42,547 nt of DNA from Pseudomonadota bacterium (GTDB taxonomy: Bacteria > Pseudomonadota > Alphaproteobacteria > Puniceispirillales > Marisalimonadaceae), in assembly GCA_027625145.1 (NCBI GenBank), contig JAQBXK010000015.1, positions 1-42,547 on the forward strand, in the 5' to 3' direction. Numbering within the stretch: position 1 is the first letter of the stretch; every line of letters starts with the position of its first letter. The translations under genes were made by a program, and so were the position numbers. Under the pieces are notes generated by a model. That model saw nothing but the letters and a program-made list of their open reading frames with translations, had not been told where the DNA came from and searched no databases. Below, one piece after another: positions 1 to 22,852 of this stretch.

Positions 1-1032
1 ATCTGTTAATACAACATTGGTGGCTGTTGCAGTTGTAGTAGCTTCATCTTTGTCTAAAGCAGTTGCTTTCAATGTAGTATCATTAACGCTAGTATCATAA
101 GCTGTAAGTAAAATATCTTCCCCTGTAGAATGAGTTAATATTATGTCTGTATTAGCAGTACTTAGCATTTCAGCAGAAATACCAGTGGTACCAGCAACTG
201 CATTGATAGCATCTTTAAGAAGTCTGAGATCAGAAGTATCTGTAATAGCAGCGCTTATACTTGCTGTATCAGTTCCATTTCCAAGAGTAAACGCTACCGT
301 TGTTGCTGCAGACAATGTACCTAATTTAAGTTTTGTTACTGCGGTTGCAGTAACGCCAGTATCAGCAGTTTTCGCATTTATATTAGAAGCTGCTGTTGCA
401 GCTGAGGAATTTGCAGCATTGGTAATTGTTGCTGATCCTATATAACCACTTACGGTTAAGGTGTGTGAAGCAATAGTATCTGCAGCACCATCTACAATAC
501 CAGACACTCCATTTGCCTGATAATTTCCAATTGCGGAAGATCTAGCATTATCAATTGAATAAGTGACTTTTTCATCCTCATTTGCGCCTATTTGGAATTG
601 TTTTGATGAAAAAGTTCCATCTAAAATTTTAGCACCGTTCCATGTTGTTTGGTTGGCAATTCTATCTATTTCAGCAATTAGTTGAGTGGCTTCTGCATTT
701 AAGAAAGTTCTGTCAAGCGCTCGGTTTGTATCGTTTGAAGATTGAACAGCTAACTCCCTAATTCTTTGAAGGATATTCAAAGTCTCGACGTGAGCACCCT
801 CTGATGTATCAATCAATTTTTGTGAATCTGTCGCATTCCTAATAGCTTGTGTTACACCCCTTACTTGAGCTTCCATTTTGCTTGCGATAGCCATTCCTGC
901 TGCATCGTCTTTAGCACTATTAATTCTTAGTCCTGAAGACAATCTCTCAATTGAGGTATCTAATTCTCTTCCAAACTTTGCCATATTAGCTGCAGAAACA
1001 ACCGCACCCATATTTGTATTTACACTACTCAT
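1..1032 (-). CDS. fliC: Flagellin, N-terminal part (gene runs off the left edge)
   Basis: Filament subunit exported by the flagellar type III system. The frame is open from an ATG at 1032 down to base 1, giving 344 residues with no stop, so the C-terminal D0/D1 region lies outside the window. The N-terminal D0/D1 domain is clear: ERLSSGLRINSAKDDAAGM near residues 29-47 and LQRIRELAVQSSNDTNRALD near 87-106. From about residue 195 a Thr/Ala-rich flagellin-IN-like segment starts (TLTVSGYIGSATITNAANSS), followed by a variable D2/D3-type region. AAGGAG lies 8 bases before the ATG. Upstream are a sigma-28-type promoter and a 5'-UTR hairpin. The LQRIRELAVQ stretch is of the gamma/beta-proteobacterial type. 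The product call is firm; the total length is unknown. Confidence 0.96.
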   Translation of the reverse strand, partial: MSSVNTNMGAVVSAANMAKFGRELDTSIERLSSGLRINSAKDDAAGMAIASKMEAQVRGVTQAIRNATDSQKLIDTSEGAHVETLNILQRIRELAVQSSNDTNRALDRTFLNAEATQLIAEIDRIANQTTWNGAKILDGTFSSKQFQIGANEDEKVTYSIDNARSSAIGNYQANGVSGIVDGAADTIASHTLTVSGYIGSATITNAANSSAATAASNINAKTADTGVTATAVTKLKLGTLSAATTVAFTLGNGTDTASISAAITDTSDLRLLKDAINAVAGTTGISAEMLSTANTDIILTHSTGEDILLTAYDTSVNDTTLKATALDKDEATTTATATNVVLTD

Positions 1033-1423: not shown

Positions 1424-3379
1424 TTAATTATCACTATTCCAAGAATCCATCATGTTTTTTAAGTAATCCCCGGTAGATTTTAAACTTGTAACAACTGATT
1501 CCATTGAAGAAAATTGTTTTTTATACCTTACTGTAAGCGATTCAACTTTTTCATCTACACTGATTAAGTCCATTTTCAAGTCAAGTAAATCATTTGAAGC
1601 AGTAGTCTCTGATTTATTTAAAGTTCCTTTTGAGGAAAGGCTATTATCAATATAATCAGTGAGTTGATCTATCAAACTTTTACCAAAGTAGATGTAAGCG
1701 CTTGATACAGTTTGTGCCTCTGTAATTTTTATACCTGCTGTATTTGCAGCAGTTCCACTAGAGACATAATAAGTATTTCCTGACGCATCTGTTGTTGAGG
1801 TCATTGCTAACCCGTCCAATTTTACTGAACTACCATCATTAATATAAGAATATTGTCCTGGTGTTGGGTTAGATGTGGCCATAGAACCTTCAACTTTTAA
1901 ATAAGACGATCCAGAACTAAACATTGTATTAAAAATTGCATCAAATACCGTTGAGTCTAAATCAAATTGAGAATTAAATGTTTTTTCATTAATAGTTAAT
2001 GTACCATCCATTTCTGTTCTAACGCCTAATTCTGATAAGTATAAATCTTTACTTCCATAACCGACAATTGCTCCAGTTGTTATAGAGCTGATTTTATTTA
2101 CTAAACTTTTAACAGCAACATTTTTTGATAGCGGCCCAGCTTCAACTGTATCTGAGCCTTGTCTTGTTAATTCATTTAAAGTAACTCTAGTATCGTTTAA
2201 AACATCTACAAACTCTTTAAGTGATGTCAAAGCACTTGTTTTATCTAATTGAGATGAAACTCTAAAAGAACTTGCTGTTACTGAAGTAATTTTGAATTCA
2301 TGACCGTCAAATAAATCTGTAATTGTATTTGAAGATCTACTTACCGTAACTCCATCTACAACTAAATATGCATCCGTTGCTGCAGTTTTTTGATGGCTTG
2401 AATTATCTGAAGTAGTATCAAAAGTAGATAGGCCTGTATCACTTGCATCTTCAGATACTGAAATTTTTATAGCATTGTTCACACCAGTTTCAGTCCTTAC
2501 GACTAGCGAATAAGTTCCATCACCCTTATTTAAAATACTTGCAGCAACACCCGTTATGCTGTTCAAATTAGAAGCTATACTAGTTAGGTTACCAGAACCC
2601 GAGCCTATTGTTAAGGTTGAGCTTGTACTTGCAGTGTTAGGACCAAAATCAGAAGCCACATGACCAATTTTGACATTGCCTGTCCCAACAGTAGAGCCAG
2701 GAGTAATGCTTGTAACAGACTTGAATACTTTAGTTGTTGTAACTGCAGCTCCATCACCACCCCCATTAATGGTTTCTGTTAGGGCATTTCCAGCCATATC
2801 TGTTCCCACAATTGTAAATGAAGCAGATGACTGATCACCACCTGTTGCAGTTAAGATTCTTACCACACCGCCAAGATTAGAGTGAGCAGTAGGCGTTCCT
2901 AAAGAAGTAGACGCTGTGACTGAAGTGGTGTCATTAAATAAGGAATCATCATCAGTAGCCGTACCATTAGTAATCCAATTACCAAAATCAACAGTTATTG
3001 AGCCACTACCAATATTTTCAGAAGTTGAGGTAAAACCTGAAAACTCTAATGTTTGAGGCGTTGCTAAAGTAGAAACTGTAACGTCAGAGCTAAAAGTTTG
3101 AGCTAGGGCTGGATTAGAAACTGAAATAGTATTTAGAGTACTTGCGCTCGACGTGGATAATTTTGTTTTATTGGCTAATGCTGAGGTGTTTGTTTTTAGG
3201 AGGTTTAATTCGCTGGCGACAGTACCTAGTGATGAAATTTCTAATGTCTTAAATTCAACATTTTCATTTATTTTATCTTTTTCCGGCGTAGTTTCTGCTT
3301 CAACAAGACTATCAACAATTTGAGTAATGTTTAATCCACTACCACCTTGATTTATTGCACTTAAATAGTCAACTGCCAT
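1424..3379 (-). CDS. fliD: Flagellar filament cap protein FliD (hook-associated protein 2), enlarged
   Basis: FliD caps the growing filament and folds incoming flagellin. The N-terminus has the family pattern (GSGLNITQIVDSLVEAETTP, about residues 13-32, then a segment ending near residue 80 with an amphipathic coiled coil). The C-terminus has the FliD_C pattern ending in KKQFSSMESVVTSLKSTGDY. At 651 residues it is well above the usual 450-500. The extra length includes a module at about residues 155-243 (TIVGTDMAGNALTETINGG, KVFKSVTSITPG, VKIG) that is the same repeat seen seven times in FlgK. It is transcribed alone, away from clcA, from overlapping sigma-28 and sigma-54 elements. No strong Shine-Dalgarno is visible. 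Confidence 0.95.
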   Translation of the reverse strand: MAVDYLSAINQGGSGLNITQIVDSLVEAETTPEKDKINENVEFKTLEISSLGTVASELNLLKTNTSALANKTKLSTSSASTLNTISVSNPALAQTFSSDVTVSTLATPQTLEFSGFTSTSENIGSGSITVDFGNWITNGTATDDDSLFNDTTSVTASTSLGTPTAHSNLGGVVRILTATGGDQSSASFTIVGTDMAGNALTETINGGGDGAAVTTTKVFKSVTSITPGSTVGTGNVKIGHVASDFGPNTASTSSTLTIGSGSGNLTSIASNLNSITGVAASILNKGDGTYSLVVRTETGVNNAIKISVSEDASDTGLSTFDTTSDNSSHQKTAATDAYLVVDGVTVSRSSNTITDLFDGHEFKITSVTASSFRVSSQLDKTSALTSLKEFVDVLNDTRVTLNELTRQGSDTVEAGPLSKNVAVKSLVNKISSITTGAIVGYGSKDLYLSELGVRTEMDGTLTINEKTFNSQFDLDSTVFDAIFNTMFSSGSSYLKVEGSMATSNPTPGQYSYINDGSSVKLDGLAMTSTTDASGNTYYVSSGTAANTAGIKITEAQTVSSAYIYFGKSLIDQLTDYIDNSLSSKGTLNKSETTASNDLLDLKMDLISVDEKVESLTVRYKKQFSSMESVVTSLKSTGDYLKNMMDSWNSDN

Positions 3380-6247: not shown

Positions 6248-7528
6248 CTATCTTAAAAACTCAAATAAATTTAAACTTGATATTTTTACAAAAGCTTGCT
6301 GACTTGCTTGCAAGCTAGTGATCTTAGATTGCATCTCTGTTACCAAGACAGCTAAATCTGCATCTACTAAATTACCAATATCTTTTTGAATAGCAATGTC
6401 TCTTTCAGCTAATGTTTCTCTTTGTCTATCAAGCAAGTTTAATCTTGCACCTACTTTTCCTCTAAAATTTGCAATGTGTACTTGTGTTTCTGCAATATTA
6501 TTTAGTTGAGACGACGTTAACTGTTTTGAGTTATATAAAGTTTGAGATTTTCCTAAAATATTTCCACCTGAATCTGTAACGTTTAATACTATATAAGAAG
6601 TAGGATCTTTTTGAGCATTTTCCATTCCCTCAATCTCTAAGTTTTCAATTTTAATCAACCCTTCTTGATTACTAGTAAGTTTTATTTTTCCTTCTGTTGT
6701 AGATAAGGAAGCGGTTATACCTATATTAGCAGCATTAATTTTTGTAATGATATCAGTTGGGTCATCACCTACTAACTCTGAGGTTATAGAAGCTGTTCCA
6801 TCATTTCCTGTAATATCAAATTTCCATTCACCAAAATTATTATTTTTTATCTCAATTTCAGCACTTGTGGGCGCTTCTAGAGCATGAACGGATTGTGCAG
6901 CAGTTCTAATTGAATGTGACATATTTTCTAACATAGTAAACATAGATATAGCTTTATTTGAACCTATTTTGATGCTTTCAAATAACGAACCACCATCTAA
7001 ATTTGTTTCTACAACCATACTTTCAGAAATACCTAATGAGGTAATTCCTCGATCTCCTTTATAATTAATTGCACCTGAAATATCTTTTACAAAAGGTTGG
7101 ACTTTACTTTTATATCCACTAAATAAAAAAGCACCTGTAGCATCTTGTTGATTGGCTAGACCAAGAGCTTGTTCTTTCATTTGATCTAACTCAATAGCAA
7201 TTGCTTCACGATCTGACGCTCCAAGAACATCACTTGATGCCTGTATCATTAATTCATTTGCTCTAATGATAATATTAGTAAGGTTTTGTAGGTTAGCATC
7301 AATAGTCTTTAAGCGTGAGTCTGAATTATTTACATTTTTAACATATTGATCTAACTGCTCTTTAACAACTTTAAAACCAGAAAGTTCAACTGAACCAACT
7401 GGGTCATCAGAGGCTACTAAAATATTTTTTCCACTAGAAATTTTACCCTGAATTGTTTGAAGGTCAGAGTTTATATCAGAGAATTGTTGTACCTGTCGTT
7501 GGTTAAATAATTTACTACTAATTTGCAT
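6248..7528 (-). CDS. flgL: Hook-filament junction protein FlgL (HAP3)
   Basis: FlgL joins FlgK to the filament. The protein has 426 residues with flagellin-like N-terminal helices (SDLQTIQGKISSGKNILVASDDPVGSVEL, quoted in part as GKISSGKNILVASDDP, about 30-45) and a C-terminal coiled coil ending in SSLNLFEFLR. The central part is beta-rich and moderately longer than the roughly 320 residues of enteric FlgL. It follows flgK by 19 bases with AGG before the ATG, and is the last gene of the flgB-L block. Confidence 0.95.
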   Translation of the reverse strand: MQISSKLFNQRQVQQFSDINSDLQTIQGKISSGKNILVASDDPVGSVELSGFKVVKEQLDQYVKNVNNSDSRLKTIDANLQNLTNIIIRANELMIQASSDVLGASDREAIAIELDQMKEQALGLANQQDATGAFLFSGYKSKVQPFVKDISGAINYKGDRGITSLGISESMVVETNLDGGSLFESIKIGSNKAISMFTMLENMSHSIRTAAQSVHALEAPTSAEIEIKNNNFGEWKFDITGNDGTASITSELVGDDPTDIITKINAANIGITASLSTTEGKIKLTSNQEGLIKIENLEIEGMENAQKDPTSYIVLNVTDSGGNILGKSQTLYNSKQLTSSQLNNIAETQVHIANFRGKVGARLNLLDRQRETLAERDIAIQKDIGNLVDADLAVLVTEMQSKITSLQASQQAFVKISSLNLFEFLR

Positions 7529-7547: not shown

Positions 7548-10500
7548 TTAAACCACTTTAATTAGTGTTTGAAACAATTCCTTAGCAGTTTGCAATATTC
7601 GTGCCGAAGCCTGATAAGCCTGTTGAAATTCTAATAAGTTTGCAGCTTCTTCGTCTAAATTTACACCTGCTAATTCACTTTGACTTCCTTCTGCGGCTTC
7701 CATATAACTTTGAGCCGCTGTAAGTGAAAGTTTATTTGCCTGAACATTAGAACCAACTTTTGCTAATGTAGTACTGAAAATTTCTTGAAAATTTCCTTTG
7801 TTTACTTGGTTTGGGTCTTCCATTTGTAAATTGATCATATTCAGAATATTTCTAGCATCACCAGTTCCAGACTTGTTTTCTGACAATGAGAAAACATTCT
7901 CAACTAAAGGTTGTTCAGAAAATTGAAATTTACTCTCGTTAAACTCAAAAACTCTATTTTGGTCTAGAATTCTAGTAGCGATAGAATGTCCACTCGATTT
8001 TTCAAAAATTTCTACTTTGTTTGTATTAACTTTATCTACCTTTATATCATACTCAAGATCTAATAAATCAGACATGTTTTCTTGAATGTCATAGTCTGCA
8101 CTTATTTTTTTTGCTCCTCCTCCACTTACAATTATAATTAAATCTTCATTAGGTAAATTATTAATTGAAATTGTTTCGGACACACTGTTTTGAATGGAGT
8201 TAGCGGGGATATCTAATTTAAGAGCATCTCCTCTTAGATTTGATATATTTATACCTTCATTATCAACTGTTAAGTTAAGCCTTTGCGTTTTAAAGCCATA
8301 CTCTATTTCAACATTTGGGCTGTCATCTAGTTGGAATGTTGAACCTCCAACTGTATTATTAATTGATAAATTTCCTACACGCTGCGTCCCAATACTCACT
8401 GGAGAAGAAGAGGTGCTTCCTGGTGTGAATCTTAGAAGTTTTGAAAAAACTTTGTTTCCTTTTACGGTAACCCCTGCTGCTTCCGCTGTAAGAACTTCGA
8501 TTTGAGCTTTTCCAAATTGATCTAAACCTTCTATTGTGTATTTGTCTCCTACATCTGAGCCAGAAGGAGTAACTGTAATAACAGAAGGTTCAAAAACTTG
8601 AGCGTTAGCTGATGTTCCAACATAAATAGAACTAGCTGTAGCATTTTGCGCAGAAATAGATAATATTTCGTTAAATACTACTGCCCCCCCACCAGTTGCA
8701 GCGTTTTGTCCAGAAATTGTCTCGGTAACATATAATCCGGTATCATCATATCCAGTTACTGTAAACGTATTAGATGTTTCATCACCTGCACAAAATATAT
8801 TTATAGTTGCATTAAGTGCTTTTGAAGATTTCAGCACACCATCTAAAACTAAATTTCCCGCTGTAGTCGATTTACTTGTGAATAAACCATCATCATCAGT
8901 AGTTGATAAAACTCCTAACATTGGTTTTACGTCAACTCCTCCAGTAAATGACACATTAGTATTAATTGAATTATTACTTGTTGTACCTGAGGTTTCATTC
9001 CACTCTAAAGTTAAACCAGATGGCGCTGAACCACTTAGTTCAGAACCAATTGAATTATAAAATTGTGGATCGCCATTACCGTCAAATTTTATTGAGTACC
9101 CTGTTCTGTTTGTTCCATCATCTACAAATATTCTGATCGCTTCATCTTCATTAGTCGGTTTTAATACAAAGTTTCCTTTTAAAGTTGTTGTAGCTGACGA
9201 AATACCAAATGCAGACGCATTTTTAATATTTTCACTATTTTGGACAAGTTTAAATTGCGCTCCTTCTACAGTACCATCAACAGTTGCCATGAATTGAAAA
9301 CCGGGAGCAGTTCCGGCCTGAATATTTCCTTGAGTTGATACCGATGGTGTAACAGATGTAATCGTCTTAAATAATTGTTGGGTATAAACAGTCTTTCCTG
9401 AGTTAGGGCCGAATATGGTTTCTGTTTGAGACAAACCATTTACATCTGTTCCAACAATTTTAAAGGTATTATTTGTCTCATTTGCAGTTGAGGTGATAGA
9501 TGCCCTAGTTCCATCAACATTAACTATTGCGGGCACAGTTCCAACATTTATATTATTAGTGTTATTATCATTTGATATTTGAGTCACGGTCTTAAATATC
9601 TTACTTCCTGTAACAGAATTATTATTAACTCCCGTAATAGTCTCGGTTTGGGCGTTACCGTCTATATCTGTGCCTGTAATTGTAAAAGTTGCTGAACTAT
9701 TATTACTAGAACTTGAAATGCTTATAAAAGAATTTAAACCGGTAGTTGCTTCTGAAGCCAATGCTCCATTTATGGTAAAATTGCTATTAATTGCTTTTGA
9801 TTCATTCACAACTAACCCATCGGGGTCCAACTGGATCGCATTAACTCCATTAAAAACTAATGCAGTCGACGCGGTACCTGATTGTAATGATGAAATTGAT
9901 TCCTGATCTAAATCAGATGTACCATTAAACCTTGCAATTACCCTGTTATCTTCAGGTCCGTTAATTATTACTTCCCCATTTCTCATAGTTACTTTAAAAA
10001 CTTGACCTTCAAAAGATAATTCTACTTGTGTACCTTCGGTAGGAATTGTATTAATCACATCACCTTTGATCTGGGAGACAGGAGTTCCAACTCTCAAATC
10101 AGCAGCCAAAGCTTTTGATATTTCATAATTTGTATCAATCTCTAAGGCGTTAGCATCAATTGATGTCTCCCAATTTCCAGCAGCAGCTTCAGTTCCTATC
10201 TTTACCATAGTAGATATTGAACCAGTGACACTAATAGATGACACTGTTTGAAAAATATTAGTAGTTTTTGCTGTTCCTGAATTTGAGCCCGTAATAGTTT
10301 CAGTAATAGACGCTCCATTTAAATCTGTTCCTGAAATAACAAATGAATTTGAAGTTGTGTCTGTACTGGTATTTATGAGAACTTTTGCACCTAAATATGT
10401 TGAAGTTGATAAAGGTCCGTTTAAAGTTAATAAACCTGCTGCAGTTAATGAAGTCTCTTTTTTAAGACTTTCATAATCATTTACATTACTTCTTCCAATA

Positions 10501-13500
10501 GTTCCTATTTTAATATTACCACTGGCAGTTGCAGAAGTGGTTATTGAAGCTATAGTTGTAAATTTTGTAGACCCAAATGCAGTATTTGAAGAAGCAACTC
10601 CAGTTATAACTTCTGTAATTGCAGCACCATCTTCATCTGTTCCTGTCACAGTAAAAGTATTACCAGTCTCAGAAGCTGAACAATAAATTGAAACAACTGC
10701 TGACAAATTACCTGAATTGATTAATGCACCGTCAAGCGTTAGTGCTGCAGCAGCACCTGGATTATTACTTGTATACAAACTATTATCGTCAGTTACACCT
10801 AGCCAATACTGTTTTTGGTTAATATCTAGTCCATACTGAGACAGTCCTACTATTGCTTTTTTACCATTTGGATCAGCTAAGTTATCATCTAATTGATTAA
10901 ATATAATTGGTTTTATTTTTGCTGTTTCACCAGATGAGTTTAAATTTACATCGATATAACTATTCTCAAGTGCATCTAGTGATCCAGATATTATTTGTCC
11001 AGAATCAATCTGATTATTAAAAGATTGGCTAGATGAGAACCTAATATTTCCTTTAATATAGGCAGATATTTTATCTGATGAACTTACATCGATTGATAAA
11101 GCATCTGAAAGTTTATTAAAATCTTCTCCTAAAGAAAAAATATCAAAATCAGACGGAGCGACTATTTCAGTCATTTCAATATCATATCCATCTTCAGATT
11201 CTATGATTACTTGATCAAAACCCAGAGTATTAATAGCTTTTAAACCTGTTTGAGATGAGTATTGATTTATTGCTTTAGCTAAAGCTGAAATGTCGGTTGA
11301 GTCAATTGTTGCTGAAATAGATATTGGATCTGTATTTTTACCTTCTAATTTAAAGCTAATATCACCACTTGTACCGTAAGCAAAAGGCCCTAAAAGTACT
11401 CTTGTTTTAGCCTCCACGGAAACTCCTGTTCCTCGAAGATCTTCTGTGAGTTTTTTAGTAAGATATTGCGCTGAGGCATTTATAGATATTGCTGTAGTAT
11501 TTGAAGTATTATTATTGTTAGTTGTTTTAAGATTATAACCACTCGCCTTTGTTCCTATATTAATAGTCCCTGCAGCGTTTCCACTACTTACAATACTAGA
11601 GACTGATTTAAAAATTTTAGAACCAACTACCTGAGAGGCATTAGCACCTGTCATGGCTTCAGTTTGATATAGTCCATCTTGATCGTAACCTGAAATGGTA
11701 AAGTTAATACCACTATCATTACCAGAACTTGTAATTGTTATATTTCCATCTATGTCATTAGAATTTGCATGCAAACCATCTAACGTTAAAGTACCTGACA
11801 AGGCGGTGGCATTTTTGTTAGTGAAAAGTCCATCTGCATCTGTAGCTTGTTTTTTATAACTTAAATTAGATCCAAAATTTTGAATATAGTCACCGCTTGC
11901 AGTTCTTCTAGTTAGATTAACGCCTCTATAATTATTATTAAGATAATCATTTTTATATTCAGCATCTTTAAAAAATCCATTCTCTTCTTTAATCAACGAT
12001 GCTATCTGGAAAGAAGTTAGCGCTTTTCCCGATATATGTCTTCCATCTCTTGAAATTATTTGAATATCACTTGCAGCTGCATCAGAACTATTAACTGAAA
12101 ATATAGATGGAGAGAATGTGTTTCCAGAAGATAATATAGAGCCTGAAACAATGTCAGAAGTTGAAGTTGCAATAGTTATAGTTCCATTTTTTCCTGAAGC
12201 GTACATGCCATAATTTCTAAAATTATGCCTACTTTTCCCATCAAGCATCAGACCAGAATTCAACAAATCGGCTAACTCTTTTACAGATTTAATTCCGTCG
12301 CCTGGATCAGTAATATCTTTGGTTAAATTTATAATATTACCATTAGCTAAAGTAAGGTTTAATGATGAAAAATTGTTAAGTTGTGAATCTGATATAAAAA
12401 AAGTAGCTGAAGATTGATTACCAAGAGAGTTTAAATTTATTGATTTAATAGAACTAGGAATTGTTGAAATTACGCCATCTTTTAAAAAAGAAGTAGCTAA
12501 AAGCGGATTTGCAGACTTACTAAAAACTTCCTCTACTTTTGGCGGTAGAAAGTTGTTTTCAATTATAGCTGTTTTTCCAAGAAGTTTTAAATCTACAGAG
12601 CCTATATTTTCAGAACTAGCAGAAATTAAATTTTTAGAGGCTGCTGCAAGATCTTCTGCAGAAGACAATTGAAAAGTAAAAGCTCCGGCTCTTGTTATAT
12701 TTGGAGAGATAACTATTTTATCCCCATCCTGGGGGTTGCCAATGACCTGAATTTCAAAACCATCAAATTTTAAGGTCTTTCCATATTGAACTGAGAGACC
12801 TTTTGATGAACTAATTTCCCAACTTGAACCTGTTTGATTAAAATTTACGTTAATATTTTCTTGAGCTATAACATTAGGGTTTCCAATTATAACTTCAAAG
12901 TCTAACTTTGATTTATTATTTAAACCTGCTTGTGGCCACATTGAATTAGTTGAAAACATTGGTTTTCCATTGTTACCATTTAAATCAATCCCAGAGGTCT
13001 GGATTTGATTTAACTCTTTACTAAATTTTTCTGCTAACTGACTTATTTCATTTTGAACAGTTTCTACTAAATTATAATATTCAGAAAGTCCTGAGATTAT
13101 TCCACCAGATAAGCCAGGCGCTGAATATGAAAAACTATCTCTGTTTATTTTTAAAATAATATTTTTTTCATCTGCACTTGCAGTAATAGTTGCAAACGAT
13201 GTCCCATCAACAAGCACAGCACCTTTTCCAGAGTCCCCTAACCTTAAATTAGCCGCTCCCGTATTGTCAAATTCAGCTGTGAAGTTTATTGATTTTGATA
13301 GTTCTTTTAGTGCTAAATCTCTAGCATCTAATATATCGTTTGAAGCGTCTGATTTTCCACTCGTTCTTATTAATTTATTTATTTTAGTTATTTGTTCAAG
13401 AGATAAATTTACTTTATCAAGTTGAATGTCAACTTCTTTTAAAACAGCATTTTTAAAATTTTTTAAAGACCTATCATAAGTATTAAATGAATTTGCAAGA

Positions 13501-13928
13501 GCTTTCCCATTTTCTATTGCTACTGTTCTTGCCGATAATTCGTCAGGCCTACTAGCTACATCTTGAAGTGAACTAAAAAATCTTCCAATAAAAGTTCCTA
13601 AATCACTATCTTCAGGTAACAACATATTTTCTAAGCTATTTAAATTTTTAACAAAACTATCTAACTTATTGTAATCAGATGTGGTAGTTCTTGTGTTATC
13701 AGCAAGAAATGCATCAAAAGACCTTCTTATATTATCAACTCTTACACCAAGACCAGACTGATCGGCAACATTTGTTATACCTCCCGAACCACCAGATATT
13801 TCTGATACTACTGCAGCACGTTTATTATACCCTTCAGTATTAATGTTAGCTATGTTCTGTCCAGTAACAGACAAAGCTTGTCTGTAAGCTTGAACACCTG
13901 ATTTACCAATTTCAAATAAGGATGCCAT
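7548..13928 (-). CDS. flgK: Giant hook-filament junction protein FlgK (HAP1), 2126 residues
   Basis: FlgK forms the first junction layer between hook and filament. The N-terminus is typical (MASLFEIGKSGVQAYRQALS, then NIANINTEGYNKR near 27-39), followed by the FlgK helical region up to about 330. The C-terminus is also typical (LSLTAAQSYMEAAEGSQSEL; GVNLDEEAANLLEFQQAYQA; LQTAKELFQTLIKVV). Enteric FlgK has about 547 residues. The insert holds at least seven 75-90-residue beta-rich repeats at about 713-795, 1063-1144, 1166-1249, 1381-1467, 1469-1541, 1690-1774 and 1778-1849. Their shared pattern is LxLxG, then FxIxGxDxxGxxxTExIxG, then vFkxVxSI and IxIGT. The whole frame is open, so this is not an assembly fusion. 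AAGGAT precedes the ATG and flgJ ends directly upstream. Confidence 0.95.
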   Translation of the reverse strand: MASLFEIGKSGVQAYRQALSVTGQNIANINTEGYNKRAAVVSEISGGSGGITNVADQSGLGVRVDNIRRSFDAFLADNTRTTTSDYNKLDSFVKNLNSLENMLLPEDSDLGTFIGRFFSSLQDVASRPDELSARTVAIENGKALANSFNTYDRSLKNFKNAVLKEVDIQLDKVNLSLEQITKINKLIRTSGKSDASNDILDARDLALKELSKSINFTAEFDNTGAANLRLGDSGKGAVLVDGTSFATITASADEKNIILKINRDSFSYSAPGLSGGIISGLSEYYNLVETVQNEISQLAEKFSKELNQIQTSGIDLNGNNGKPMFSTNSMWPQAGLNNKSKLDFEVIIGNPNVIAQENINVNFNQTGSSWEISSSKGLSVQYGKTLKFDGFEIQVIGNPQDGDKIVISPNITRAGAFTFQLSSAEDLAAASKNLISASSENIGSVDLKLLGKTAIIENNFLPPKVEEVFSKSANPLLATSFLKDGVISTIPSSIKSINLNSLGNQSSATFFISDSQLNNFSSLNLTLANGNIINLTKDITDPGDGIKSVKELADLLNSGLMLDGKSRHNFRNYGMYASGKNGTITIATSTSDIVSGSILSSGNTFSPSIFSVNSSDAAASDIQIISRDGRHISGKALTSFQIASLIKEENGFFKDAEYKNDYLNNNYRGVNLTRRTASGDYIQNFGSNLSYKKQATDADGLFTNKNATALSGTLTLDGLHANSNDIDGNITITSSGNDSGINFTISGYDQDGLYQTEAMTGANASQVVGSKIFKSVSSIVSSGNAAGTINIGTKASGYNLKTTNNNNTSNTTAISINASAQYLTKKLTEDLRGTGVSVEAKTRVLLGPFAYGTSGDISFKLEGKNTDPISISATIDSTDISALAKAINQYSSQTGLKAINTLGFDQVIIESEDGYDIEMTEIVAPSDFDIFSLGEDFNKLSDALSIDVSSSDKISAYIKGNIRFSSSQSFNNQIDSGQIISGSLDALENSYIDVNLNSSGETAKIKPIIFNQLDDNLADPNGKKAIVGLSQYGLDINQKQYWLGVTDDNSLYTSNNPGAAAALTLDGALINSGNLSAVVSIYCSASETGNTFTVTGTDEDGAAITEVITGVASSNTAFGSTKFTTIASITTSATASGNIKIGTIGRSNVNDYESLKKETSLTAAGLLTLNGPLSTSTYLGAKVLINTSTDTTSNSFVISGTDLNGASITETITGSNSGTAKTTNIFQTVSSISVTGSISTMVKIGTEAAAGNWETSIDANALEIDTNYEISKALAADLRVGTPVSQIKGDVINTIPTEGTQVELSFEGQVFKVTMRNGEVIINGPEDNRVIARFNGTSDLDQESISSLQSGTASTALVFNGVNAIQLDPDGLVVNESKAINSNFTINGALASEATTGLNSFISISSSSNNSSATFTITGTDIDGNAQTETITGVNNNSVTGSKIFKTVTQISNDNNTNNINVGTVPAIVNVDGTRASITSTANETNNTFKIVGTDVNGLSQTETIFGPNSGKTVYTQQLFKTITSVTPSVSTQGNIQAGTAPGFQFMATVDGTVEGAQFKLVQNSENIKNASAFGISSATTTLKGNFVLKPTNEDEAIRIFVDDGTNRTGYSIKFDGNGDPQFYNSIGSELSGSAPSGLTLEWNETSGTTSNNSINTNVSFTGGVDVKPMLGVLSTTDDDGLFTSKSTTAGNLVLDGVLKSSKALNATINIFCAGDETSNTFTVTGYDDTGLYVTETISGQNAATGGGAVVFNEILSISAQNATASSIYVGTSANAQVFEPSVITVTPSGSDVGDKYTIEGLDQFGKAQIEVLTAEAAGVTVKGNKVFSKLLRFTPGSTSSSPVSIGTQRVGNLSINNTVGGSTFQLDDSPNVEIEYGFKTQRLNLTVDNEGINISNLRGDALKLDIPANSIQNSVSETISINNLPNEDLIIIVSGGGAKKISADYDIQENMSDLLDLEYDIKVDKVNTNKVEIFEKSSGHSIATRILDQNRVFEFNESKFQFSEQPLVENVFSLSENKSGTGDARNILNMINLQMEDPNQVNKGNFQEIFSTTLAKVGSNVQANKLSLTAAQSYMEAAEGSQSELAGVNLDEEAANLLEFQQAYQASARILQTAKELFQTLIKVV
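8382..8860 (-). repeat. FlgK repeats 6 and 7 (tandem)
   Basis: Copies at about residues 1690-1774 and 1778-1849. Motifs are FTVTGYDDTGLYVTETISG (with INIFCAGDETSN before it) and YTIEGLDQFGKAQIEVLT with KVFSKLLRFTPG and VSIGTQR. Copy 7 is the most diverged. Confidence 0.7.
9305..9785 (-). repeat. FlgK repeats 4 and 5 (tandem)
   Basis: Copies at about residues 1381-1467 and 1469-1541. Motifs are FTITGTDIDGNAQTETITG with KIFKTVTQIS, and FKIVGTDVNGLSQTETIFG with LFKTITSVTP. The second copy lacks the leading LxLxG strand. Confidence 0.75.
10180..10740 (-). repeat. FlgK repeats 2 and 3 (tandem)
   Basis: Two copies spanning about residues 1063-1144 and 1166-1249. Copy 2 has FTVTGTDEDGAAITEVITG and IKIGTIG. 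Copy 3 has FVISGTDLNGASITETITG and VKIGTEA. Copy 2 carries a cysteine (VSIYCSASETGNTFTV) at the same place as copy 6. Confidence 0.75.
11545..11790 (-). repeat. FlgK phage-tail-like repeat 1
   Basis: Residues about 713-795 of FlgK. Key motifs are LTLDGLHAN, FTISGYDQDGLYQTEAMTG, KIFKSVSSI and INIGTKASG. Boundaries are estimated by eye. Copies 2-7 lie further along the same gene and one copy lies in FliD. Confidence 0.75.
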
Positions 13929-14261
13929 TTATTTGATATCCTTTAATTGCAAATGTGGTTGGAATTGCTTTATTAAGGCATCTGCTATTCCAAAATTATT
14001 TTTCTTAGATAAAACTTGAGAGTACTCCATATCAAGCATATTATTAAAAGTGTCCTGAGCTTCAGAACTAAACATACCTTCAGCAAGCTTACTTTTTCTT
14101 GCCTGTTTAAGCATTTGATGAACAAAAATAGCTTCAAACTGCTCTGCTACATCTTTCAACTCTCCTGATTTTTTATTGGATAAATCAGTTGATAATGATT
14201 TGTTTGTTGCGTTATCAATCAAAACATTCATTTGATTAGAATTTATTATTGAATTTCCCAT
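13929..14261 (-). CDS. flgJ: FlgJ-type rod-binding protein, rod domain only
   Basis: Scaffold for rod assembly in the periplasm. It has about 110 residues with the rod-binding motif (LKDVAEQFEAIFVHQMLKQA, about 34-53) and SEAQDTFNNMLDMEYSQVL. The C-terminal muramidase domain of enteric FlgJ is absent, as in many proteobacteria, so another enzyme must open the cell wall. The ATG at 14261 is preferred over an in-frame TTG one codon upstream because AGG is well spaced from it. It lies between flgI and flgK in the block. Confidence 0.9.
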   Translation of the reverse strand: MGNSIINSNQMNVLIDNATNKSLSTDLSNKKSGELKDVAEQFEAIFVHQMLKQARKSKLAEGMFSSEAQDTFNNMLDMEYSQVLSKKNNFGIADALIKQFQPHLQLKDIK

Positions 14262-14272
14262 CAATTATCTAC

Positions 14273-15397
14273 CTAAATAATAATCATTTGAGCTCTTAAA
14301 GCGCCAGCAGCCCTTAGAGCTTCTAAAATAGCAACTAAATCAGCACTTGTTGTTCCTATTGCGTTTATCGCATCAACTATATCTGATAGGGAAGTTCCTG
14401 TATCAAATACAAATGCAGATGCTTTGTCAGCTCCAGCTTCAATTTTTGAATCAGCGTTAGTAGTTGCATCAGTAGTCGTTGTAATATTTCCTTCGTCATC
14501 GTATAAAGTCTGACCTGGTGTTGTGTTTGTGTCTTCATTAACTTTTACAGTCAGACTTCCATGACTTACTGCTGCTGGAGTAACTCTTACATCTCCACCT
14601 ATTACTATTGTTCCCGTCCTTGCATTAATAACTACTTTTGCTACAGGCGCAGCTGGATCAACTTCTAAATTTTCTAAAAGGCTCATAAAACTTACTTTTT
14701 GAGCAGAATCACTTGGAGCCCTTACAGATATTGAAGTTTTATCAAGAGATTTAGCTACATCAGGGCCAAATACTTTATTAATTTCTTCTGTAATTCTATT
14801 AGCTGTTGTAAAATCACTATTATGAAGGTTCATTACGAAATTTTTTGAAGTTATAAATGATGTTTGAACCATTCTTTCAATTGTTGCTCCGTTTGGTATG
14901 GTTCCAACTGTAGGTATATTGACAGACATAGAAGATCCATCAGCTCCTTCTACACCAAAGCCACCTACAGCTAAATTTCCTTGAGCAATAGCATAAGTTT
15001 GACCATCTGCACCTTTTAAAGGTGCCATTAAAAGTGTTCCACCCCTTAAACTTTTAGCCTTCCCCATTGAAGACACAGTAATACCTATTTGTTGACCTAC
15101 TTTTGCAAAGGGATCTAAATTTGCTGTAATCATAACTGCAGCAGAGTTTTTTGCACTTAAATCTCCTGTGCCAACAGTCATTCCAAACTGAGACATTGTA
15201 GATTGCATGCTCTGAAGAGTGAGTGCTAATGTTGCATCTCCAGTGCCATCAAGTCCTACAACAATTCCATAACCCATCAACTGGTTTGACCTTATACCGG
15301 CAAAACTAACCATATCTTTTAATCTATCAGCCATTAATTGATTAATAAAAGATAGAAACATTAAAGTGATTAAAAAACTTAATTTTAAAATTTTCAT
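14273..15397 (-). CDS. flgI: Flagellar P-ring protein FlgI
   Basis: Periplasmic ring subunit around the rod, 374 residues with a cleavable signal peptide (about 1-23, ending LMA). Family motifs are [20 protein letters not shown] (about 25-44), GLDGTGD, and the C-terminal [27 protein letters not shown]. The length is standard. The gene lies between flgH and flgJ, and AGGA precedes the ATG. Confidence 0.97.
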
Positions 15398-17722: not shown

Positions 17723-20700
17723 TTATGTTCTTATTTGAATAATTGCTTGCGTAAGGGTTGTATTAGTTTCAATAGTTTTTGCATTTGCCTGGAAGTTTCT
17801 TTGTGCGGTAATCAAATTAACCAGCTCTTCAGTAATATCAACATTTGATCGCTCTAATGAACCTGATAAAATGGTTCCATAACCATCAGCTCCAGCCTCT
17901 CCAACATCAGCAACACCTGAAACCGAAGTTTCAACATAAGTTGCGTTACCAATTTGTTTTAATCCATTTTGGTTGTTAAAGTTAACCATAACTAAACGAC
18001 CAAGCGCTAAGTTTAATCCATTGGTATAGTTAGCGCTAACTAAGCCGTTTGCGGCAACATTTAGTCCATCTAACTTTCCTACAGTTTGACCGTCTTGTGT
18101 CACTGATTTCACATTAAAATCAGATGCAAATTGGGTCGATCCAGCAAAATTTAAATCAAGATCAATAGACAATGCTGCTGCACCTGTGGCATCATCCGCA
18201 GCAAAATCACCTTTGTAACCAACTTTCTGAATTGGACTTACAATGTTACCTTGGGTATCAAAAGTTAACTCCCCAGGCCTTAAAAAAACTTTAGCAAATG
18301 TTCCGTCAGTAGTTGGCGTCCAAGAACTCTCTGGAGCTAAGGTTGTTGTTGTTCCATCATCGTTAACATACAATGATTGTCCAGTTGATGATGAAGCCGT
18401 GGCGTTTGCCATATCCACAAAAGATGGTGTAGTGCCTGTAACTAATTCTAAATTATTAAGTCCCATTCTTGAACTTCCTGACACAAATATTTTACTTTTT
18501 AAACCAGTCGTACCAGTAGTAAACGTAAAAGAATTTGAGGTTGTATTATATGATACGGTAACACCATTAACAGTATTTCCTTTATTATCTTCCATTTGAT
18601 TAATTCTTGACTGTAAAGCCGTGGCTAAAGATGTACCATTATATACCCCTTCAGGCACTGTAATAGCTGCTGTAATATCATTTACATTGACAACAAAAAT
18701 TGTTTCTTCTGCAGAAGTAGATAAGAAGAAATCTTCAGATAAATCTTCATTAGAGGTTTTTCCTGTTAAAGTAGCGGCTGTTGATTGCAAGCCCTTTCCA
18801 GCTGTGTCCGCCGTAACGGTAGATATCGCTGCAGTAGCATTTATACCCAATAAAGCACTTGTTCCACCGATGCCTGCTGCAGATGCCGTTGCAACTCCGT
18901 CTACAATCGCTAAACGACCAATTTCAATGTTCGATGAAGCTTGTCCTCCATCTCCTACGCCTACCGCAGAGTTAGCAGGTATGCTTTCACCTGTAGATCC
19001 ACTAGCAATGCTAAACTTTCGAGTCAGGTTATTATAAGAGACCTCAACTCCGTATGCCCTTTGCGTATCTGCAGCGATTTGATCTCCACTAAATAAAATA
19101 GGTTCAGCTTTTAAAACTGCTCCGCCACCAATGTTTGATGAGGTTTTATTACTTAAAGTATTTAATCCAATTGCATTTGCTTTTGTACCTTCACCTGGTC
19201 CAAAAGCTGAAAAAGAAAACATTTTACTTTGAGTAGAAGTACCAATAATTGATGGCACACCCTCTAAAGTAAAATTTTGACTTGAAATATCATAAGCAAT
19301 TTTTAATGCTGGATCTTTTTCATCAACCCAATCATCAGTAGACGTAAGTTCTTGTATAACAATAGCATCAGCAGCATGAGCAGCTGCTGTTGTCCCTCCT
19401 GCAGCTCTAGTAAGGCCTGTAAAACTAGTTGCTGTTATACCTGTATATGACATCACTTCATTATTTAGTCTTATATAACCAGAACTTTCAAAACCATCAG
19501 TATTGTCTACTATCAATGTTGTTGCAGTAGCTGTTAAAGCAGTAGCAACATCTGTATTTTTAGTTGATAAACCTAAATTATTGATAGTATCTTGCAAAGA
19601 TATAACTGATGTGGCAATTATAGAGTTGCTTTCACTATTATCAGCCGCTCTTGTAATCCCAGTTAATGTAGTAGCCGTCATACCTGTATAAGTGATTATT
19701 TCACTACCAATCTTAACTTTTCCAGGAGCAGTCGCAGTTGCAGCAGTAAAACCAGACGTTGAGCCAACTGTTAATGTATAAGAATCTGCTGGAAGAAAAG
19801 AAATCGAAGTATTATCAGCAATAGCTGCCGTAGTTGCAGCACTAATGGTAATTGTAGTTCCAGCGATAGCTGTAACTGTTGTGCCAGCAGGAACACCTGC
19901 TACTTCAACTATATCACCAACTGAAATACCTGTATTTGCATCAACTATAATTTGTGTTTGTCCAATTGCTTCTGCACCATTTAATAAAACTTGCGCTCCC
20001 AATCCATCACCATCTACAAAGTTAATTTCCCCTCCAACTACAGTAGCAGTCGCATTAGCACTTAATGTTACAGATGTCCCAGTGATCGCTGCAACTGTAG
20101 TATTTGCAGCAATTCCTGTTCCATAAACTAGGTCTCCAACGGCAATATTTGTTGCATCAGCTACTACTAGACCAGTTGTTCCAGTTGTTACTGAACCAGT
20201 TGTATGACTACTTGATAAGAAAGAAACTTTAGTTCCTTCAACAGCTGCGGAAGCTGCTGTTAAATTTTCTGTAGTAGCCGCGCTTAATGTAACAGTAGAA
20301 GTGGCGTTATTTATAGCTGTAACGCTAGTACCTGCAGGAATTCCTGCACCCACCACAACATCACCAACTCTAATTCCGTTAGTTCCTCCATCTACAACTA
20401 GAGCTGTTGTTCCAGCTGTAGAGGCTCCTGTTTTTTCATAAATTACATTTGTTCCTTCTATTGGAGCATTCGTTGCTCTTGTAGAAGGTACTGTGGTAAG
20501 AGTAGTATTTCTTAAAATATCAGTAAAACCAGATATAATCCCATCAGTAAAATCTAATAATTGTAAACTTGTATCATCCGAGTGTATTGCTGCAGTTGTT
20601 GTGTTAGCTCCTCGAGTTATACCAGTAAAAGTCGTAGCCGATCCAATGCCAGTATAAGTAATTTGCTCAGTACCCAACATTAATGTGCCAGAAGAAGGAA

Positions 20701-22852
20701 ATCCAGCCGTAGTATCAACAGTTAAACTTGCACCTGTTGCAGGATTAGTAGCTGAAATAGCTCCATTTATTAGAGTATCTGGCTGTTGCATATTTTTATT
20801 TAAATATGAATGTTTATTTAATTCTTTTATGACTATTTTTTTGCTTCCCAAATAATTATTTTGTCCTGAAAAAATATCTGTTCCACCTTCAAAGTAGGCT
20901 TCAATATCTTTTGAAGCTGTATGAAGAACTTTAACTTTAGTATCAGTGATATTTATCGCTGTGGTAGAATCTGATTTAAGGTTCAAATATTCATTTCCAT
21001 TAGCATCAGTTCCTGCACTGGAAACTGAAAAGTTAGCACCATTATATTTCAAATCGTTAACAGTTGATGTTGATGTATCAAATTCACCAGCTAAATACAC
21101 TTCAGTAGGAAATGATGTTGCACTTATAGTATTGCTAGCATCGTTAATATAGACTTTCAAAGTTCCTGCGGCATCCTGTACCATTGTACTTCCAGAAACA
21201 GCTGTAACATCTAATGCCTTATCAAATACTTTTAATAATGGTGAAGAATTAGCATAACTATGAAGAAGAAATTTTTCTTCTATTGTAGCATTGTTTTCAT
21301 CAGTGAGAGTAGTCGTAGGTTTTTTATAATTAAAACTTAATACTTCTGTTTCTTTAATTGCTCCAGTTAAAGCTTTTCCAGTAACTCTATTAAACAATGA
21401 TGAACTGACACCATAGGTTGCAGAATTATTTGTTGCACCATCTGCAGATACAGCAGCTCTATTTAAAGCATCATTAATTCTTAATTGTGAATGAGCAAGA
21501 AACTCTTCTCTTGAAAAATTAGGTGAAGCTACATTTTCGATTCCGCTTGTAGCTGAAAATAAATCCTCTGTTACAAAACTATCCTTCATTAAATTAACTT
21601 TAATAGCAGTCAAAGTTTGTATTTCATCATTATTATCTAATTGATTAAACTGAATAGAAAAACTTCCATCAGTTACTGGGTCAATAGACAACTTAGCATC
21701 ATCACTAAGTCCCGCATTGATTGCCCTTTGAACTTCTGCAGCTAGTGATGTTGCCGTATAACTTCCTGGCCTTATATCAATACTTTTAAAACCTGCACTT
21801 CCAGTTGTATCGTCGACTCTAACTGTTAAAAAATCTTTTCCCCAATAGGTGGATTTATTTAAAGTTGGGTTTGCTTCATAAGTTGTATTATACTGAAGTG
21901 GATCAGTTACTACAGTTATTGATGGTGCAGTATCAGTAAATGCAGCGTCTTCTAAAACTGTAGAAGTAACTGTTGCAGACTGTGATACCGTTTTGTTAGA
22001 TAAATCATCTAAATAAAATAAGGGTTGAGTCTGTGCAACTGAAATAATTTGTGGCTTTTGATCCATAGGTATCATTTGACCAAACCTATCAACAACCAAA
22101 GTTTGACCAGTTGGAGAAATAGCTTCTGTTAAAGATGGTGTAACTTCCCTTCCATCTACAATAAATTTCGTTTGATAATTATGAGTTGTGGCATCACCAC
22201 CGGCAGCTTGTGTTTTAATAAAATAAGCCGTTGCAATAACAGGATTTCCAAGGCTATCAAAAATTGTTACAGATGTTGAAGAATTAAATGTCGCAGGGTT
22301 TGATGCGTCAAAATCATCTGCTGATTCAAAAACAGTTGATGATGAGGGTATATTTACTGCAAGTGCTAGATTATCTGTAGCCTTTGCTTCACCAGCTTCT
22401 AGTTCTAATTTTAAAGGAGAAGCGTCTGTAATTTCTCCTCCTTGAACAGATCCATCATCAGACACAGGCAAAGCCAAAACGTACTGACCAGCTGAATCTA
22501 CAACATATCTATCGTTATCGACTGAAAAAGAACCGTTTCTGGTATAAACAGTTTGGTTTGTTGTCAATGATGGTTTTAGCGCAAAAAATCCCTGTCCAGA
22601 TATAGCCATATCTAGAGCGTTAAGAGATGAGGTAACGTTACCTTGAGTGAACTGCTGCTTTATACCTTTTAAAATTGTTCCAGAACCAATTGAAGATGAA
22701 CTATTTTGTAATGGAGAGGTTGCAAAAATATCTCCAAATTCAGCTTTACTCCTTTTATAACCAGTTGTTGCTACGTTAGCGATATTATTTGATGTGGCAG
22801 AAATATCAGCCTGAGATCCGTTAAGTCCTGTAAGTGCGGTATAAAATGACAT
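17723..22852 (-). CDS. flgE: Giant flagellar hook protein FlgE, 1709 residues
   Basis: Subunit of the universal-joint hook. The N-terminus is canonical (MSFYTALTGLNGSQADISAT; NNIANVATTGYKRSKAEFGD about 23-42; LDMAISGQGFFAL), as is the C-terminus (ERSNVDITEELVNLITAQRN; NTTLTQAIIQIRT). Enteric FlgE has about 402 residues. The excess is beta-rich. Two domains with RPGSYTATSLAAEVQRAIN (about 365-383) and VPEGVYNGTSLATALQSRIN (about 1400-1420) resemble each other. Between them lies an array of two other repeat types at about 708-1170. The sequence is rich in Ala, Thr and Gly, looks visibly less AT-rich than its neighbours, and is open throughout. AGGAG precedes the ATG; flgD ends 33 bases upstream. 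Confidence 0.95.
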   Translation of the reverse strand: MSFYTALTGLNGSQADISATSNNIANVATTGYKRSKAEFGDIFATSPLQNSSSSIGSGTILKGIKQQFTQGNVTSSLNALDMAISGQGFFALKPSLTTNQTVYTRNGSFSVDNDRYVVDSAGQYVLALPVSDDGSVQGGEITDASPLKLELEAGEAKATDNLALAVNIPSSSTVFESADDFDASNPATFNSSTSVTIFDSLGNPVIATAYFIKTQAAGGDATTHNYQTKFIVDGREVTPSLTEAISPTGQTLVVDRFGQMIPMDQKPQIISVAQTQPLFYLDDLSNKTVSQSATVTSTVLEDAAFTDTAPSITVVTDPLQYNTTYEANPTLNKSTYWGKDFLTVRVDDTTGSAGFKSIDIRPGSYTATSLAAEVQRAINAGLSDDAKLSIDPVTDGSFSIQFNQLDNNDEIQTLTAIKVNLMKDSFVTEDLFSATSGIENVASPNFSREEFLAHSQLRINDALNRAAVSADGATNNSATYGVSSSLFNRVTGKALTGAIKETEVLSFNYKKPTTTLTDENNATIEEKFLLHSYANSSPLLKVFDKALDVTAVSGSTMVQDAAGTLKVYINDASNTISATSFPTEVYLAGEFDTSTSTVNDLKYNGANFSVSSAGTDANGNEYLNLKSDSTTAINITDTKVKVLHTASKDIEAYFEGGTDIFSGQNNYLGSKKIVIKELNKHSYLNKNMQQPDTLINGAISATNPATGASLTVDTTAGFPSSGTLMLGTEQITYTGIGSATTFTGITRGANTTTAAIHSDDTSLQLLDFTDGIISGFTDILRNTTLTTVPSTRATNAPIEGTNVIYEKTGASTAGTTALVVDGGTNGIRVGDVVVGAGIPAGTSVTAINNATSTVTLSAATTENLTAASAAVEGTKVSFLSSSHTTGSVTTGTTGLVVADATNIAVGDLVYGTGIAANTTVAAITGTSVTLSANATATVVGGEINFVDGDGLGAQVLLNGAEAIGQTQIIVDANTGISVGDIVEVAGVPAGTTVTAIAGTTITISAATTAAIADNTSISFLPADSYTLTVGSTSGFTAATATAPGKVKIGSEIITYTGMTATTLTGITRAADNSESNSIIATSVISLQDTINNLGLSTKNTDVATALTATATTLIVDNTDGFESSGYIRLNNEVMSYTGITATSFTGLTRAAGGTTAAAHAADAIVIQELTSTDDWVDEKDPALKIAYDISSQNFTLEGVPSIIGTSTQSKMFSFSAFGPGEGTKANAIGLNTLSNKTSSNIGGGAVLKAEPILFSGDQIAADTQRAYGVEVSYNNLTRKFSIASGSTGESIPANSAVGVGDGGQASSNIEIGRLAIVDGVATASAAGIGGTSALLGINATAAISTVTADTAGKGLQSTAATLTGKTSNEDLSEDFFLSTSAEETIFVVNVNDITAAITVPEGVYNGTSLATALQSRINQMEDNKGNTVNGVTVSYNTTSNSFTFTTGTTGLKSKIFVSGSSRMGLNNLELVTGTTPSFVDMANATASSSTGQSLYVNDDGTTTTLAPESSWTPTTDGTFAKVFLRPGELTFDTQGNIVSPIQKVGYKGDFAADDATGAAALSIDLDLNFAGSTQFASDFNVKSVTQDGQTVGKLDGLNVAANGLVSANYTNGLNLALGRLVMVNFNNQNGLKQIGNATYVETSVSGVADVGEAGADGYGTILSGSLERSNVDITEELVNLITAQRNFQANAKTIETNTTLTQAIIQIRT
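19343..19785 (-). repeat. FlgE 'GF-YTG-TR' repeats, copies 2 and 3
   Basis: Residues about 1022-1085 (LTVGSTSGFTAATATAPGKV; EIITYTGMTATTLTGITRAA) and 1104-1170 (LIVDNTDGFESSGYIRLNNE; VMSYTGITATSFTGLTRAAG). These flank the VGD array on its C-terminal side, while copy 1 flanks it on the N-terminal side. Confidence 0.75.
19790..20415 (-). repeat. FlgE 'VGD-G-GIPAGT' repeats, three tandem copies
   Basis: Residues about 812-1020 hold three copies of roughly 60-65 residues. Their motifs are GIRVGDVVVGAGIPAGTSVT, IAVGDLVYGTGIAANTTVAA and GISVGDIVEVAGVPAGTTVT, each followed by VTLSA or ITISA and a final strand ending in F (VSFL, INFV, ISFL). Confidence 0.8.
20555..20730 (-). repeat. FlgE 'GF-YTG-TR' repeat, copy 1
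   Basis: Residues about 708-765: LTVDTTAGFPSSGTLMLGTE, QITYTGI and FTGITRGANTTTAAIHSDD. The pattern (L-VD-T-GF, E-ITYTG, TFTGITR) is common in phage tail and virion proteins. Two more copies follow the second array (see 19343-19785). Confidence 0.75.

Follow-up and report, generated by a model that had tools for sequence, protein, structure and literature searches.

FlgK joins the flagellar hook to the filament, and a 42,547-nucleotide stretch of a Pseudomonadota draft genome (GenBank GCA_027625145.1, contig JAQBXK010000015.1; the whole stretch is called the window here) encodes a FlgK candidate of 2126 residues. This locus raises the question of whether so large a protein is a true FlgK, where its additional sequence came from, and what that sequence may do on a flagellum. 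The gene (7548..13928, minus strand) is a single open frame with no interruption, and its product scores 250.6 bits against TIGR02492 (flgK_ends), for which the curated equivalog cut-off is 170.75, and matches PF22638 at 2e-47. The FlgK_D1 domain lies at residues 96-325 and the C-terminal rod/hook motif Flg_bbr_C at residues 2085-2124. The gene is also in the place expected for flgK, with a rod-binding protein (13929-14264) and FlgI (14273-15397) on the flgI/flgJ-like side and FlgL (6248..7528, minus strand) on the other. Salmonella FlgK (HAP1; PDB 9GO6, 2D4Y; 553 residues) has D0, D1, and D2 in common with the window protein and can be aligned (9go6) with its residues 1-434 and 2022-2125, so that the D0-D1 ends flank an outer domain: the N-terminal part of D0-D1 spans residues 1-330 (12939..13928), the D2-equivalent residues 331-434 (12627..12938, aligned up to Salmonella residue 441, with pLDDT 75-87 over residues 340-409), and the C-terminal D1-D0 residues 2022-2126 (7551..7865, aligned with Salmonella residues 448-552). 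What Salmonella FlgK lacks is the ~1,590 residues (435-2021; 7866..12626) between the equivalents of its residues 441 and 448, which therefore enter at one point, the end of D2. The window protein is thus a true FlgK, expanded at one site only, directly behind D2. A preliminary description of this DNA was right that FlgK ends enclose a large insert in one unbroken frame, but its figure of about 1700 extra residues comes down to ~1,590 relative to Salmonella FlgK.

The insert includes a repeated domain, of which an HMM finds seven copies: copy 1 at residues 697-796 (11544..11840; E 2e-37 in the genome search), copy 2 at 1047-1146 (10497..10790; E 2.4e-35), copy 3 at 1151-1249 (10185..10478; E 2.8e-35), copy 4 at 1368-1467 (9531..9827; E 3.5e-33), copy 5, core only and directly abutting copy 4, at 1473-1542 (9303..9512; E 3.4e-25), copy 6 at 1678-1775 (8607..8897; E 2.9e-36), and the degenerate copy 7 at 1782-1849 (8382..8585). 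In a profile search of the genome, six copies reach 89-128 bits, and copy 7 is the weakest (E 2.7e-10). The earlier count of at least seven copies therefore stands, with their length corrected from 75-90 to ~70-100 residues, made up of a core of ~70 residues and an optional N-terminal extension of ~30. The strongest conservation falls on glycines and phenylalanines (G51, G65, F47, F77, G22, and G96). Beyond these seven copies and one in FliD, the HMM finds no match in other frames of the window or in the draft genome.

AlphaFold2 predicts a single repeat (copy 1, 88-row alignment) as an all-beta domain, a beta-sandwich, with pLDDT 92.4 and pTM 0.84. The significant fold matches of this model, six BFVD entries with E from 1e-6 to 3e-4 and TM 0.71-0.89, come without exception from phages, and the named ones are uncharacterised proteins. 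Fold searches of the PDB with the same model returned nothing significant (no Foldseek match at E 0.001), and the best PDB structural similarity has a Z of 6.0, where values below 8 may reflect merely a common beta-sandwich arrangement; viral jelly rolls, complement, and carbohydrate-binding modules (Z 5-6) reach middling scores, as does the jelly-roll protein of phage BPP-1 (3j4u, Z 5.1), and unrelated rows score equally high. The best PDB profile match, a repeat protein of the 'flagellin hook IN motif family' (6xi1; E 0.011, single stretches E >4), was not accepted as homologous. A model of FlgK residues 340-1539 (1200 residues) shows beta domains, mostly of good confidence, both in the D2-like part and across the repeat regions, which bears out the domain repeats of the preliminary description; its pTM of 0.33 means that the domain arrangement is not reliable, and residues ~410-680 have low confidence.

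The array is a conserved trait of the family. Relatives, recorded as SAR116 cluster single-cell genomes or MAGs, have FlgKs of 2126-2475 residues with 7-10 profile matches at corresponding positions, and their mean identity to the window FlgK is 61% over D0-D1, 45% over D2, and 44-59% over the insert segments. Among close relatives, dN/dS ranges from 0.03 to 0.11 at the ends of the protein and from 0.10 to 0.15 in those parts of the insert outside the repeats; the repeats themselves, at 0.09-0.36, tend to be the least constrained part of the protein and evolve faster than its core. These low values, below 0.4 across the insert, indicate purifying selection. The source genome is a draft of 83 contigs, so assembly or binning might have fused phage with flagellar sequence, and the preliminary description had itself raised an artefactual frame as a concern, but the intact frame and the same full-length architecture in genomes of many projects, both single-amplified and MAGs, under purifying selection, refute this reading and leave it with practically no probability. 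In a tree of the repeats (a short alignment of ~99 columns, midpoint-rooted and with modest support), FlgK copies cluster by position across genera, so the array predates the genera. In the window and in one relative (L155), copy 4 clusters with copies from FliD and a giant surface protein, unlike the same-position copy in several relatives, and looks like a domain swap.

Size and repeat have different histories. Among the matches listed for 398 genomes of the phylum, FlgK frames have 454-985 residues, the window FlgK excepted, and other families of the same order have FlgKs of 1,200-2,030 residues without the window repeat. FlgK size is therefore an order-level trait and the repeat array a family-level addition; the large size is itself older than, or independent of, the repeat. 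In other families, SAR116-related and marine alphaproteobacterial, FlgKs of 1,400-2,030 residues without the repeat are likewise widespread (L181-L230). The module occurs in 48 of the 101 relatives sampled, concentrated in one family; outside it, we find the module in one genome (G083) from another family of the order, in 2 of 385 other alphaproteobacteria, and in one other genome of the 398 in the phylum sample, in a frame of 9496 residues. This last open frame, from another alphaproteobacterium and probably encoding a giant surface protein, holds two repeat copies (G752:C2:97839-99515). A single FlgK-type repeat, placed near FliD and FlgK copy 4 in the tree, lies in a surface-type protein of 4228 residues with an RTX-like C-terminus (L233:4602-17285).

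Elsewhere, the module is known mainly from marine and freshwater phages, in a gene of the head cluster. Viral contigs contain at least 560 stretches that encode it, with identity of up to 58% among the matches listed, mostly in proteins of ~205-250 residues that have a single copy near the N-terminus and a separate C-terminal domain; some viral contigs encode a second protein, of ~380 residues, with another copy. We examined the best 80 of the at least 560 viral loci, picked by similarity to the FlgK repeat. The module gene has a major capsid gene (phrog_371) upstream in 68 of the 80, an SU10-type (SU10/Pam1-type) head-tail adaptor gene (PF24175) downstream in 64, and one or both as neighbours in 79, which confirms the phage context. 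Searches of these contigs with the ends of FlgK, FlgE, and FliD gave no match, so the contigs are not mislabelled flagellar fragments. The preliminary description had likened the repeat to phage tail and fibre proteins; its kinship with a phage virion-type module holds, but the homologues lie in the head module, between the capsid and adaptor genes, so that the label of tail and fibre is wrong for this repeat. No PHROG tail family matches FlgK or the repeat-carrying phage proteins at E 0.01, and PHROGs and Pfam hold no named family for the FlgK repeat; one phage protein has an FG-GAP match (E 6e-4) that falls short of the Pfam cut-off and was discounted for its weakness.

A cultured example is Pelagibacter phage HTVC023P gp42 (HMM E 8e-16), which, like the ~205-250-residue head-module proteins, shares the module with FlgK and differs in having a single copy, its own C-terminal domain, and a place in a capsid cluster. 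It was found only with a phage homologue as query; the FlgK repeat itself and another phage homologue gave no match among phage isolates. Phage DSL-LC04 was rejected as a module carrier, its match running through the C-terminal phage domain only. Its counterpart gene, which adjoins a gene annotated as cement protein, consists of the C-terminal half without the module, and in phages, too, the module therefore looks like an optional add-on. A phage protein with and without the repeat domain can be compared in L150:5046-5348 and L138:4944-5561.

Some other axial proteins encoded in the window carry modules as well. The filament cap FliD (651 residues; 1424..3379, minus strand; PF02465 and PF07195 above cut-off) carries one FlgK-type repeat at residues 144-244 (2654..2953, minus strand; E 3.4e-29 in the genome search). 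For the window and some relatives, the FliD module stands at residues ~144-281, and other relatives have it at ~530-740; copies at these two places fall into different tree groups, so the module probably entered FliD more than once. The flagellin gene (1..1032, minus strand) ends at the contig edge, and the 344 residues present have no repeat in that part; flagellins of relatives have 900-1045 residues, several with the repeat, so the missing part of the window flagellin might carry it too. Those with the module include proteins of 945 residues in L173, 1017 and 862 in L234, and 907 and 757 in L235. FlgL, at 426 residues (TIGR02550, 216 bits), is of normal size and carries no repeat.

The hook protein FlgE is also a giant, at 1709 residues (17723..22852, minus strand; PF07559 above cut-off; NF004240 364 bits, under the model cut-off of 472), and it has modules of its own on the same strand. 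Module A5, a repeat distinct from that of FlgK, occurs in three copies (20558..20737, 19592..19786, and 19349..19528), the first matching PHROG baseplate wedge families at ~1e-6; these families, PHROG 2885 and 708 (phage baseplate wedge subunits, E ~1e-6), resemble A5 and not the FlgK repeat. A5 is encoded in at least 425 viral stretches, with identity of up to 67% among the matches listed. Module A6, also in three copies (19793..20428), weakly matches the phage virion protein phrog_5838 (E 0.0012). In relatives with FlgKs of ~2375-2475 residues (L162:9998-17407, L171, L173, L174, and L178), three copies of the FlgE-type phage module lie inside FlgK just before repeat 1 and make up part of the added length; they are missing from the FlgK of other relatives and are probably a lineage-specific insertion. 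FlgK and FlgE lengths are positively correlated among loci (Spearman 0.72, n=33, relatedness ignored).

Outer-domain variation in flagellins is well known. The closest parallel is the giant flagellins of marine gammaproteobacteria, whose outer domains are enlarged with internal repeats and which form thick filaments (Thomson et al., 2018, PMC6248924). Like the window FlgK, these are axial proteins with an expanded outer domain and internal repeats, but the protein is flagellin, duplication and vertical transmission are described with no phage module, and neither FlgK nor FliD is mentioned. Burkholderia FlgK (4UT1, 673 residues) and the 608-residue FlgK of 9GSX also exceed Salmonella FlgK and vary outside D0-D1; their additions are of tens to ~120 residues, compared to 1,590 in the window, and the descriptions consulted report none of them as phage-like.

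We consider it somewhat better than even (a probability of about 0.55) that surface modules shared with phages have accreted on exposed parts of the flagellar axis and form on FlgK a large collar that is mainly structural or decorative. By homology to Salmonella, the D0/D1/D2 core would assemble normally, with 11 subunits between hook and filament. The Salmonella junction (9GO6) is a ring of 11 FlgK subunits, ~190 A wide, with D2 exposed at the surface (PMC12221982), and an exposed collar, which the preliminary description had proposed alongside an adhesive ring, is a reasonable expectation because the insert leaves FlgK beside D2. Each subunit would project a ~1,590-residue chain outward from the end of D2, in beta-rich domains that include the seven beta-sandwich modules, and eleven of them would bring ~77 modules to each flagellum. 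The resulting collar at the hook-filament junction would be continuous with the oversized hook, and the same module would also decorate the FliD cap and, among relatives, the filament, so that an oversized flagellar surface seems to have been built from virus parts. The modules may serve mainly as interchangeable units that add thickness and decoration to the flagellar exterior, possibly with ligand binding as well; a structural or decorative role is favoured because the array is conserved in position and constrained and its most conserved residues are glycines and phenylalanines.

The main rival is an adhesive role, in which ligand-binding modules, for example glycan-binding ones, fix the flagellum to particles, algae, or cells, and phages bind the same kind of surface. 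Display of the module on virions (by gene context), on flagella, and once on the 4228-residue surface protein would suit adhesion, as would the faster evolution of the repeats relative to the FlgK core. The similarity to carbohydrate-binding modules points the same way, but at Z below 8 it may mean merely a shared beta-sandwich arrangement, and the conserved glycines and phenylalanines look structural, unlike a binding site; on balance an adhesive collar is possible, with a sizeable minority of our belief. That the inserts have no function, and that selfish or drifting domain duplications were tolerated in an exposed loop, is very improbable. The record of modules gained, lost, and swapped, with FlgKs of ~2470 residues holding three copies of the other phage module in some relatives and with copy 4 differing in type between relatives, is what such neutral accretion would produce, but dN/dS is well below 1 throughout, most copies hold their position across genera, insert identity is comparable with that of the core, and the synthesis and secretion cost would be high for oligotrophs with small genomes.

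As to the direction of transfer, phages could have acquired the module from flagellar proteins, for instance for mimicry of flagella or attachment to them, and in the midpoint-rooted tree the viral rows do cluster together, with weak support (SH-aLRT 68), among bacterial copies. However, viral sequences were sampled by their resemblance to the FlgK repeat, which makes a single viral clade partly a sampling effect, and the at least 560 viral stretches stand against a bacterial distribution mostly within one family (48/101, with 2/385 and 1/398 elsewhere). The ~99-column tree does not fix the direction; because the module has a broad distribution among phages and a restricted one among bacteria, we prefer recruitment by the flagellum from phages, and the opposite direction seems unlikely. 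Beyond the structural or decorative collar on FlgK, a broader proposal is that this abundant marine lineage rebuilt the exterior of its entire flagellar axis, from hook and junction to filament and cap, using two or more families of phage virion modules, and that these bind or protect surfaces there just as they do on the virion; we put this forward tentatively and think it more doubtful than not.

As the preliminary description had supposed, no giant FlgK of this kind is described in the open-access literature searched, which holds no junction protein of fourfold size that recurs throughout a family and consists of modules in common with phage virions. These genomes show the process in snapshots: some copies are conserved, others look swapped, and certain lineages seem to have gained insertions of a second phage module. 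Such snapshots make it testable how phage surface modules get into cellular machines, and make testable, too, a large flagellar collar, mechanical or adhesive, in oligotrophic marine bacteria.
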